From assembly GCA_002796325.1 (NCBI GenBank), contig PCXA01000018.1, positions 206,707-270,706 of the forward strand: a DNA stretch of 64,000 nt, written 5' to 3'. Each line of letters opens with the position of its first letter. Position 1 is the first letter of the stretch. The position numbers and the translations under genes were made by a program. This stretch comes from Deltaproteobacteria bacterium CG11_big_fil_rev_8_21_14_0_20_47_16. GTDB lineage: Bacteria; UBA10199; GCA-002796325; 1-14-0-20-47-16. The notes beneath the pieces were generated by a model, which had not been told where the DNA came from, ran no database searches, and saw only the letters and a program-made list of their open reading frames with translations. Shown here piece after piece: positions 21,034 through 64,000 of the stretch.

Positions 21034-21260
21034 ACAACCAAATTTACCTCGCCGTCTCGCTCGTCGGGCACGACGTCGGTTTTTCGTTACGGCGAAAAAC
21101 CGCTTACCCTTCGCCTCTCGGCTACGGGTACTTCTTCGTCCACCCGCTACGCAGGTACCCGGACTCGGTCGTCACTCTCGCCGTGTGTGGCAAAGAACCA
21201 TGGATACACACAGCGAAGAGAGTCACACCGAAGCGAGACGGCGTCGTTAAATTTGGTTGT
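21034..21260. repeat. Large multi-branched inverted-repeat element (E1)
   Basis: Terminal 13-bp IR ACAACCAAATTTA/TAAATTTGGTTGT; 11-bp subterminal IR GCCGTCTCGCT/AGCGAGACGGC; internal 10-bp hairpin CGGTTTTTCG/CGAAAAACCG; 7-bp CGGGTAC/GTACCCG. Confidence 0.85.
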
Positions 21261-21261
21261 A

Positions 21262-21366
21262 GCCAATGGCATTTTTGCCATCGTCATACGACTACGCTCA
21301 TAAACGCGCCTTGATACTCAGTACAACGTAGTTCTCCGAATGAAATGGCGAGCTCACTTGAGTGAA
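21262..21366. repeat. 105-bp dispersed repeat, half-palindrome copy (E2)
   Basis: Matches 56942-57046 with about 5 mismatches. Confidence 0.9.
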
Positions 21367-21412
21367 GTATTGGCGCGGGCTGGGTGACGCCCGGAGGTTC
21401 CCTACGAATGAA

Positions 21413-30917: not shown

Positions 30918-31124
30918 TCATCCTCCTCCAACAGCATGGACAATTTCCACGCGGTCCCCGGCAGTAATTTGTAGCTCTGCATGGTGTGATTTTGGGATAA
31001 TACGATCGTTAACGGCAACGGCAACACCCGTGACAGGGGCTTTTAAACTTTGTAGCAGCTGCAATACAGTTTGGGGCTGTGAGTACGCTTGGGGTTGACC
31101 GTTAATTGTAATGGTATCTGTCAT
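30918..31124 (-). CDS. thiS: Sulfur carrier protein ThiS
   Basis: 68 aa, [15 protein letters not shown]-terminal HAVGGG. Confidence 0.95.
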
Positions 31125-31125
31125 T

Positions 31126-31200
31126 GCAATCCCTTCGGCGGCATTATCCGCATCAGGTTATGAGGGTATATTCTCAGCCCGCTGGGCACCCCTTGCTCAA
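31126..31200 (-). promoter_or_regulatory. TPP riboswitch (THI element)
   Basis: Minus strand GGGGTGCCCAGCGGGCTGAGAATATACCCTCATAACCTGATGCGGATAATGCCGCCGAAGGGA immediately upstream of thiS. Confidence 0.96.
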
Positions 31201-31230
31201 AATCAAATGGGCGCCTATCAAAGGCGCCCA
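31201..31230 (-). terminator. Terminator hairpin for the upstream minus-strand lipoprotein gene
   Basis: 9-bp stem TGGGCGCCT/AGGCGCCCA followed on the minus strand by TTTGATTTT. Confidence 0.7.
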
Positions 31231-42699: not shown

Positions 42700-44238
42700 A
42701 TGATTGAGCGTGCCCTCATTAGTGTTTCTGACAAATCTGGAATTCTTGATCTTGCCAAGCAACTGCATGCCATGAACATTAAGATTCTTTCCACAGGGGG
42801 GACCGCTAAGGTTATTTCAGGTGCAGGTATCCCTGTTGTTGAAGTGTCTGATTTTACAGGGTTCCCTGAAATTTTAGATGGGCGTGTTAAAACACTGCAT
42901 CCTAAGGTGCATGCAGGGCTACTTGCACGTCGTGATATTCATGATGCAATTATGCAACGAGAAGGGCTTCCTTATATTGATTTGCTGGTTGTGAATTTTT
43001 ATCCATTCGAGAAAGCTGTTTCAGATCCCCAGTGCTCACTTGCAGATGCCGTTGAACAAATTGACATTGGTGGTCCGGGTATGGTGCGCTCTGCAGCCAA
43101 GAACTATACTGATGTAGCCGTTGTGACGGATCCATCAGATTATGAAGTGATATTACGGGAGTTGTCTGAAAAAAGGGAAGTGACGCGATCGACACGATTT
43201 CGACTGGCCCAAAAAGCATTTGCACGAGTGGCTGAATACGACGCCGCGATTTGTCACTATTTGACACAATTTACTGATGAGTCACAGAAAAGTGACATAC
43301 CGGAAACAGTAGTGGTTTCTGGAAGGCGTATTCAATCATTGCGCTACGGTGAAAATCCCCATCAATCGGCTGCGTGGTATCAAACCTCAGCAACTGGTTT
43401 GTCTGCGGCACAGCAACTGCAGGGGAAAGAGCTGTCTTATAATAATATTCTTGATGCAGATGCAGCCCTTGAAACAGTCCGTGCGTTTTCTGAGAAGACA
43501 GCATGTGTCATTGTAAAACATGGTAATCCCTGCGGGATTGGGGTTGAACAAAAATTGAATGACGCCTTTGTACGTGCACAAGCAACAGATCCTGTGAGTA
43601 GCTTTGGTGGCATTGTGGCACTATCGCGTCCTTTAGATGTAGAAACGGCTGAGGCAATTGCCAAAACTTTTTTTGAAGTGGTGATGGCACCAGGCTTTGA
43701 TGCAAAAGCGCTGGCGATTTTAGAATCCAAAAAGAATTTACGTCTGTTGAAAGTGCCGTGTGCTGCGGAGCTGCCAACCTCAGATCCAATATTAAGATCT
43801 GTACAGGGAGGATTTCTGTGGCAGATGCGGGACTGTGAATTTCAAGATTTAGGGTCGATGCGTATTGTTACGACGCGTGCACCCAGTCGAGAAGAGTTAC
43901 TTGCACTTGATTTGGGGTGGCGTGCTGCCCATTATGTCAAATCCAATGCAATTGTCTTTGCAAATGCAACGGGAACAGTCGCCATTGGTGCGGGCCAGAT
44001 GAGTCGAGTGGACTCTGTGCAATTGGCAGTCATGAAGGCTCAGCTCCCCCTCAAAGGCACAGTCGTTGCGTCAGATGCGTTCTTTCCGTTTGCAGATGGG
44101 CTTTTGGCGGCTGCCAAAGCCGGTGCAACAGCTGTCGTTCAACCTGGCGGTTCTGTCCGCGACGAAGAAGTCATTGCAGCTGCCAATCAGCATAACATGG
44201 CCATGATTTTCACAGGCACACGCCACTTCCGCCATTAA
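42700..44238 (+). CDS. purH: Bifunctional AICAR formyltransferase / IMP cyclohydrolase
   Basis: ALISVSDKSGILDLA, EILDGRVKTLHPKVHAG, VIVKHGNPCGIG, DAFFPFADGL. Confidence 0.97.
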   Translation: MIERALISVSDKSGILDLAKQLHAMNIKILSTGGTAKVISGAGIPVVEVSDFTGFPEILDGRVKTLHPKVHAGLLARRDIHDAIMQREGLPYIDLLVVNFYPFEKAVSDPQCSLADAVEQIDIGGPGMVRSAAKNYTDVAVVTDPSDYEVILRELSEKREVTRSTRFRLAQKAFARVAEYDAAICHYLTQFTDESQKSDIPETVVVSGRRIQSLRYGENPHQSAAWYQTSATGLSAAQQLQGKELSYNNILDADAALETVRAFSEKTACVIVKHGNPCGIGVEQKLNDAFVRAQATDPVSSFGGIVALSRPLDVETAEAIAKTFFEVVMAPGFDAKALAILESKKNLRLLKVPCAAELPTSDPILRSVQGGFLWQMRDCEFQDLGSMRIVTTRAPSREELLALDLGWRAAHYVKSNAIVFANATGTVAIGAGQMSRVDSVQLAVMKAQLPLKGTVVASDAFFPFADGLLAAAKAGATAVVQPGGSVRDEEVIAAANQHNMAMIFTGTRHFRH

Positions 44239-44246
44239 AGTCACAA

Positions 44247-44511
44247 CATAATGTCGCTTATACGGCGATCTTCGTAAGGGAGCAGCATGCCGTTCCAACT
44301 TTTCACACTGTGGCCGCCGTATTCTGAGCCGATGTGATCCCGGCAGGGCGGCTCTCGGAAGAGCGTGCATCTAAGCCTATAAACTGCACGCTCTGAGAGA
44401 GCAGCGTGGCGTTTTTTCGGCGTATGAGAAAAAACGACCACCGGCGCCCGAAGGGACCACATCGGCGAAGTCAGGCGGCCAGTGAGGAAAATTCGTATAA
44501 GCGACATTATG
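44247..44511. repeat. Large multi-branched inverted-repeat element (E3) between purH and purD
   Basis: Terminal 18-bp perfect IR CATAATGTCGCTTATACG/CGTATAAGCGACATTATG; GCCGATGTGATCCC/GGGACCACATCGGC; AGAGCGTGCA/TGCACGCTCT; CGTTTTTTC/GAAAAAACG. Confidence 0.88.
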
Positions 44512-44585
44512 GTATTGGCGACACGGCCTAGGGGAATAGAGTTTTTTATGTACTCTTTTGGGGGCATTCGTTAAGCATGCGTCCC

Positions 44586-56752: not shown

Positions 56753-56811
56753 TACGTACACCAGCGTTCGGTGACCAAACCCCAGCAGGCGTATGGCGCA
56801 GTTACGCTGGC

Positions 56812-57033
56812 GCTTGCCATTTCCTCCTCCGACCCTACGTTGTACTGAGTGGCGCAATCGCTCCGTCATGACTCGACAAAAATGCCTTGGCCACAAAACG
56901 AGCTTGAATGTCCTCCTGCCTGTCGGCCTTCAATCTCGGTGGCCAATGGCATTTTTGCCATCGTCATACGACTACGCTCATAAACGCGCCTTAATACTCA
57001 GTACAACGTAGGTCTCCGAATGAAATGGCAAGC
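56812..57033. repeat. Large imperfect palindrome (E4); its right half is the 105-bp dispersed repeat
   Basis: GCTTGCCATTTC/GAAATGGCAAGC (12 bp), CCTACGTTGTACTGAGT/ACTCAGTACAACGTAGG (17 bp), CAAAAATGCC-TTGGCCAC/GTGGCCAATGGCATTTTTG. Confidence 0.9.
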
Positions 57034-57052
57034 TTATTTGAGTGAAACGAGT

Positions 57053-57111
57053 ACACCCAAATTTAGCGACGTCGTGCCCGACGAGCGAGACGGCGAGGTA
57101 AATTTGGGTGT
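57053..57111. repeat. Compact inverted-repeat element (E5), shares a module with E1
   Basis: 13-bp IR ACACCCAAATTTA/TAAATTTGGGTGT; 57066-57111 matches the reverse complement of 21034-21079 at 44/46. Confidence 0.88.
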
Positions 57112-63902: not shown

Positions 63903-64000
63903 CACAACATAATGTCGCTTATGCGGCGATCTTCTAAGGGAACGGCATGCTGCTACCCTCGGCAACAAGGCTCAGTAGGCGTATGGCGCAGGAGCTCCGT
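63903..64000. repeat. Partial copy of the palindromic element family (E6), cut by the window end
   Basis: 63903-63950 matches the left end of E3 (44242-44290) at about 45/49; 63973-63991 matches 56783-56801 at 18/19. Confidence 0.85.

Follow-up and report, generated by a model that had tools for sequence, protein, structure and literature searches.

The structured DNA that fills the gap between purH and purD, here called E3, is best explained, with moderate confidence, as one copy of a non-coding, dispersed and non-autonomous hairpin-forming element that resembles an oversized REPIN or MITE. In the window, by which we mean the whole 64-kb stretch of DNA that was analysed, both genes are on the same strand, with the purH stop codon at 44236–44238 and the first purD start at 44577; E3 begins 8 bp past the stop codon and runs on the plus strand from 44247, the start of its left 18-bp arm, to the CTAG at its right outer end (44531). 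The earlier note had described a perfect 18-bp terminal inverted repeat, and this is indeed present: the left terminal core CATAATGTCGCTTATACG (44247–44264, plus strand), which carries the dif-like motif CATAA-N6-TTATRCG, has a perfect inverted copy at 44494–44511 (minus strand). With up to 3 mismatches allowed, the pattern of this repeat was found three times in the window, against 0.04 expected by chance. The same note ended the element at 44511 (265 bp); its left end and inner part stand, but the right end has to be moved, since the repeat continues for about 20 bp to 44531. This right outer arm, GGTATTGGCGACACGGCCTAG (44512–44531; CTAGGCCGTGTCGCCAATAC on the minus strand), is common to other copies of type A, the group to which E3 belongs, and belongs to an outer inverted repeat with CTAG/TTAG at its ends; in E3, the left arm of this repeat is degenerate and adjoins the purH stop codon.

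All the nested arms listed earlier for E3 could be found, including the GCTCTC/GAGAGC flank. Arm search and folding gave the stems TGGCCGCC/GGCGGCCA (44311–44318/44474–44481, spanning 44311–44481) and GCCGATGTGATCCC/GGGACCACATCGGC (44328–44341/44453–44466, spanning 44328–44466), both without strand assignment; the latter pairs at 13 of 14 positions and bears a three-way junction. This junction and its two hairpins constitute the module M2 (44345–44448, plus strand), recognised by the covariance model R3, which was trained without E3 and whose best match in the 64-kb window is E3 (47.7 bits, E 9.9e-9). Hairpin 1 (AGAGCGTGCA/TGCACGCTCT, 44360–44394) and hairpin 2 (CGTTTTTTC/GAAAAAACG, 44410–44436), both on the plus strand, were each identified from the arms, the fold and the R3 match. 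The multi-branched fold anticipated from the nested arms was obtained on both strands, about 10 standard deviations beyond shuffles: −82 kcal/mol for DNA (z −10.7), and −144 and −134 kcal/mol for RNA of the plus and minus strands (z −10.9 and −10.1), with no shuffle equally stable in any of these. At gathering score, Rfam gave no family at E3, and a search of eight loci with E as high as 0.5 gave no relevant one. Within the window, Rfam recognised a single feature, a TPP riboswitch at 31112–31203 (minus strand, 67.9 bits).

E3 belongs to a family dispersed in many copies through the host genome, a draft assembly that is broken at the repeats. In this genome, E3 as query matched 18 times and a longer copy, L023, 37 times. 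Allowing for one mismatch, the terminal core CATAATGTCGCTTATRCG was counted 13 times, always within the E3 family, and the outermost common sequence YTAGSCCGTRTCRYCA nine times, always in type A elements. Nine type A loci were assembled (E3 and L020 to L027), in unrelated surroundings, so that E3 is not a single-copy structure. A second group, type B, has different ends and shares its internal modules with type A, and altogether more than 20 loci contain related pieces. Eight contig ends fall inside such repeats (C2, C4, C5, C8, C9, C14, C15 and C16), which shows how these repeats break assemblies; therefore, the true copy number is higher than the assembled one. The window itself holds a further type A copy, truncated where the window and contig end (63876–64000, plus strand; left outer arm and core 63908–63925), and two related composite repeats on the minus strand, one at 56761–57104 with an M1 module (56847–56995, minus strand) and an M2 remnant (57067–57104), and the other at 21041–21403 with a disrupted M2 (21065–21230, minus strand) and half of an M1 (21259–21338, minus strand). 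L023 contains a 220-bp block bearing M1 that is missing from E3, where it may have been deleted, or which L023 may have gained by insertion; the M2 of E3 also differs from that of L023. Two other composites contain a structured block between TTGTGCGGGA and TCCCGCACAA arms (L041 1230–1400 and L051 170–330), possibly a third module. No parent insertion sequence with type A ends was found in the assembled contigs of this draft, where the outer end occurs only in these elements. The flanking tetranucleotides, CTAG/CTAG at L024 and CTAG/CTAA at L022, are palindromic and lie within the inverted repeat, so they are no sure sign of a target site duplication. As regards the MITE-like element proposed in the earlier note, the multiple copies, the dispersal and the terminal inverted repeats are borne out, while the mobility of the family is what we infer.

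The host-genome copies fold as mosaics of nested hairpins built from two kinds of unit, each with a core of about 150 nt plus arms. M1, absent from E3, is a long stem hairpin with internal G-A mismatches, and M2, kept in E3, is a T-shaped three-way junction with two hairpins. In the tip, middle and outer stems of M1, the sequences differ between copies and the pairing is kept; the tandem G-A internal loops are conserved as well, and so is the loop at the tip. In a plain MAFFT alignment of 9 copies, double changes were found in 21 of 44 pairs, and this is the cleaner evidence, as the larger alignment of 39 copies was fitted to the structure; in the latter, 90.8% of cells are paired, double changes affect 40 of the 44 pairs, and 394 double-change cells compare with 117 in shuffles, whereas slid controls drop to a paired fraction of 33–48%. 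The structure of M1 is thus conserved through compensatory changes.

Both modules recur elsewhere in the class. When 60 relatives were searched at the DNA level, two weak matches turned up, both in other families of the class; they are homologues of M2 and M1 with the same architecture and different stems. A first M1 model found M1 in 13 class genomes; retrained on 39 copies, and with at most 10 candidates scored per genome, it found M1 in 16 of the 47 class genomes and nowhere among 242 genomes that lie outside it. The M2 model matched in G041, G012 and G010, and M2-like junctions in G008/G020 and G021/G043/G026 were recognised from folds read by eye, the best model match there having E 0.014. 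Multi-copy three-way junctions of this M2-like kind (L118–L124 in G043 and L112–L117 in G008) have almost mismatch-free outer stems of at least 30 bp and fold at −75 to −163 kcal/mol; in L116 and L117, an identical extra hairpin, GATGCGACGCTTTCGCGTCGC, is inserted in the second hairpin. The sister species G021 and G043 have one M1 site in common, so some copies are stable. At L108 (G043:C209), about 120 bp of other sequence interrupts the M1 hairpin relative to its sister G021. Empty sites, sought in relatives, were obtained only in part: G020 has an M1 where the corresponding leuS flank of G008 has none, and both G026 and G008 lack an M1 seen in a sister species, but changed neighbours or divergence blur the junctions. 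No match was found by blastn among phage records with E3 or among plasmid records with L023.

One strand of M1 is preferred as the folded one, whether as RNA or as single-stranded DNA. On this strand, G-U exceeds A-C in the core (84 versus 39) and in the arms (38 versus 13), and G-A exceeds C-T in the arms (91 versus 9), although the p values of this bias are optimistic because the M1 copies are related. Since palindrome upkeep alone would be symmetric, the asymmetry indicates that it is the fold of one particular strand that is conserved; in M2, strand bias is absent. The M1 strand shows no consistent relation to the strand of the upstream gene, and its 3′ side is more often toward the 3′ end of the next gene. 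Neighbouring modules have a fixed arrangement: all ten clean pairs, in six genomes including the host genome, point outward, comprising seven M1/M1 pairs (L030, L038, L066, L074, L082, L172 and L187) and three M1/M2 pairs (L023, L075 and L171). L070 and L087, judged by eye, are also outward, and the exception is the truncated composite at 21041–21338 of the window, whose two remnants are on one strand. In class genomes the modules often stand side by side; in the host genome they are packed within the longer terminal arms of types A and B.

The arms around the modules are specific to each locus. The outer stem of M1 in other class genomes reaches about 20–60 nt beyond the core and is exact over up to 42 bp. 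Across 50 entries, which represent 49 distinct copies as one locus was entered twice (L075 and L171), the arm self-pairing score had a mean of 25.6 and a minimum of 15, and every entry paired with itself above all of its shuffles, which scored at most 12. Arms from different genomes had a mean pairing score of 7.2, and cross-pairs within one genome a median of 9, with a minority of related copies. The outer arms therefore pair within each copy and are unrelated between most copies, a combination that none of the systems named below explains. When G021 and G043 are compared, both bases of a pair in one arm have changed, from G-C to A-T, and a position that is mismatched in one species is paired in the other.

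Movement of the element could depend on an enzyme that acts in trans and recognises the hairpin when it is extruded or single-stranded, by analogy with the role proposed for RAYT transposases in moving REPINs; the need for hairpin recognition, helped by template-switch correction between the arms, would keep the arms paired. Y1 transposase genes (PF01797) occur in 39 of the 47 class genomes, with up to ten in each and many encoding 200–350 aa. They are found in 14 of the 16 genomes with M1 and in 25 of the 31 without it (Fisher p 0.70, 47 genomes), and none of the 29 inspected Y1 loci had M1 or M2 nearby, which leaves an association of M1 with RAYT/Y1 unsupported. A derivative of the IS200/IS605 type is likewise unsupported, as M1 and M2 hairpins were not found at the ends of the Y1 genes inspected. 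A more detailed version of the mobile element seems doubtful: M1/M2 would be class-specific, and on insertion of the folded strand about 30 bp of adjacent DNA would become perfectly duplicated in inverted orientation on the two sides of the element, in place of a direct target duplication; the host-genome copies would in addition have gained dif-like ends at which Xer can invert the interior.

The terminal cores also suggest that types A and B could be Xer modules, in which XerC/XerD invert, exchange or insert the interior between inverted dif-like ends, much like pdif modules or the hairpin attP of CTX phage. Both ends of both types carry a CGYATAA-N6-TTATG core, with the full 11-bp arms matching only partly, and the type A ends, the type B ends and a probable chromosomal dif, CGCATAATATATATTATG (L044 1353–1372; G000:C15:87354), are alike only over CATAA-N6-TTATRCG, for which 13 of the 14 exact matches genome-wide are element ends. 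The flank of this dif, ATAATGTCGC, is identical to a ten-base stretch of the type A core, set in another register, possibly by chance. The centres of the dif-like sites also agree within one element. Outside and inside the type A core there are two kinds of flank each, and by their combination (read from one end in four copies that are cut by contig ends) E3 (right end), L020, L022, L023 and L026 are standard, whereas 4 of the 9 copies (L021, L024, L025 and L027) have an interior swapped relative to the outer arms, the exchange falling inside the 18-bp core. Type A interiors thus occur in both orientations, for which Xer recombination and strand switching within the palindrome are both conceivable sources. 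This reading, our first favourite, was demoted because elsewhere in the class the arms differ from locus to locus and do not resemble dif, so that matched centres follow from pairing alone. Moreover, the outer arms run about 20 bp past the dif-like site as inverted repeat, the type A sites are related by descent, as are the type B sites, and the dif candidate was not confirmed by the GC skew of the host genome. We now regard Xer modules as quite improbable; the swapped interiors and dif-like ends nevertheless offer a direct way to test an involvement of Xer.

A folded strand under selection would also be expected if M1 and M2 were repeatedly duplicated structured RNAs, encoded by genes of their own or forming part of transcripts, and we keep this as a possible, though tentative, alternative. 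The extensive covariation of M1, the excess of G-U and G-A on one strand and the conserved tandem G-A and tip loops all fit it; however, single-stranded DNA would yield an equal asymmetry, wobble pairs are few (about 3–6% of pairs), M2 is unbiased, the M1 strand does not follow the upstream gene, and Rfam gave no family. Of the structured RNA module suggested earlier, the structure is thus upheld by extensive compensatory change in the internal modules, while the RNA nature is conjectural. The palindromes might instead be passive, inserted or duplicated once and kept paired by template switching between the arms during replication, with a functionless folded strand. Near-perfect arms that are unrelated between copies, the matched double change between sister species and an M2 that is about 97% Watson-Crick without strand bias point in this direction, but template switching alone is strand-symmetric, M1 is clearly biased, its loops and internal mismatches are conserved, and the outward arrangement is fixed, so we consider the passive account unlikely. 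It is scarcely credible that the gap holds a common terminator or the remnant of a protein gene: E3 does start close behind the purH stop codon, but no T tract directly follows the stem, the small frames across E3 follow the palindrome, and both proposals are contradicted by the copy number and by the model match, which shows a three-way junction common to other loci.

The preferred reading, a hairpin element moved in trans, describes a family that, as tested, is not REP/REPIN or Rfam and probably not pdif; it appears to be new, no description of it having been found in the open-access literature or Rfam. A family of very large hairpins present in about a third of the class genomes, in none of those searched outside, missing from Rfam and with an M1 strand clearly selected to fold is unusual. 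If RNA, it would be a new abundant RNA class; if mobile, a hairpin element several times larger than a REPIN. BIMEs and RIMEs are mosaics of palindromic units between genes, and the E3 family is likewise an intergenic mosaic of palindromic units, but its units differ, its nested hairpins are much larger, and its structure is conserved class-wide. The hairpin attP of CTX phage and the integron attC are recombination sites formed when one strand folds, and they belong to phages or gene cassettes, whereas the E3 family has neither a phage or plasmid match nor a cassette gene. Like bacterial MITEs, it is short, non-coding and multi-copy with terminal inverted repeats; unlike them, it has an interior in which structure as well as sequence is conserved, and no parent IS was found in the assembled genome. 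With the pdif (XerC/XerD) modules of Acinetobacter (PMC12907356), it shares two inverted dif-like sites around a segment and interiors in both orientations; however, it is without an internal gene, chromosomal and dispersed, its outer inverted repeat extends past the sites, and its ends match only the core of the 28-bp site. REPINs, inverted REP doublets that form hairpins with compensatory changes in their stems and are linked to RAYT/Y1 transposases (PMC3116915), are similar in being intergenic and dispersed, in having two inverted hairpin units with compensatory stem changes, and in the folded single strand as proposed substrate (PMC3116915). They differ in that their units measure tens of bp rather than the roughly 200 bp of the E3 family, and the short conserved unit of about 20–40 nt that characterises REPs is not seen in M1 or M2; the three-way junction of M2, the locus-specific outer arms, the nested composites and the lack of a RAYT association further set the E3 family apart.
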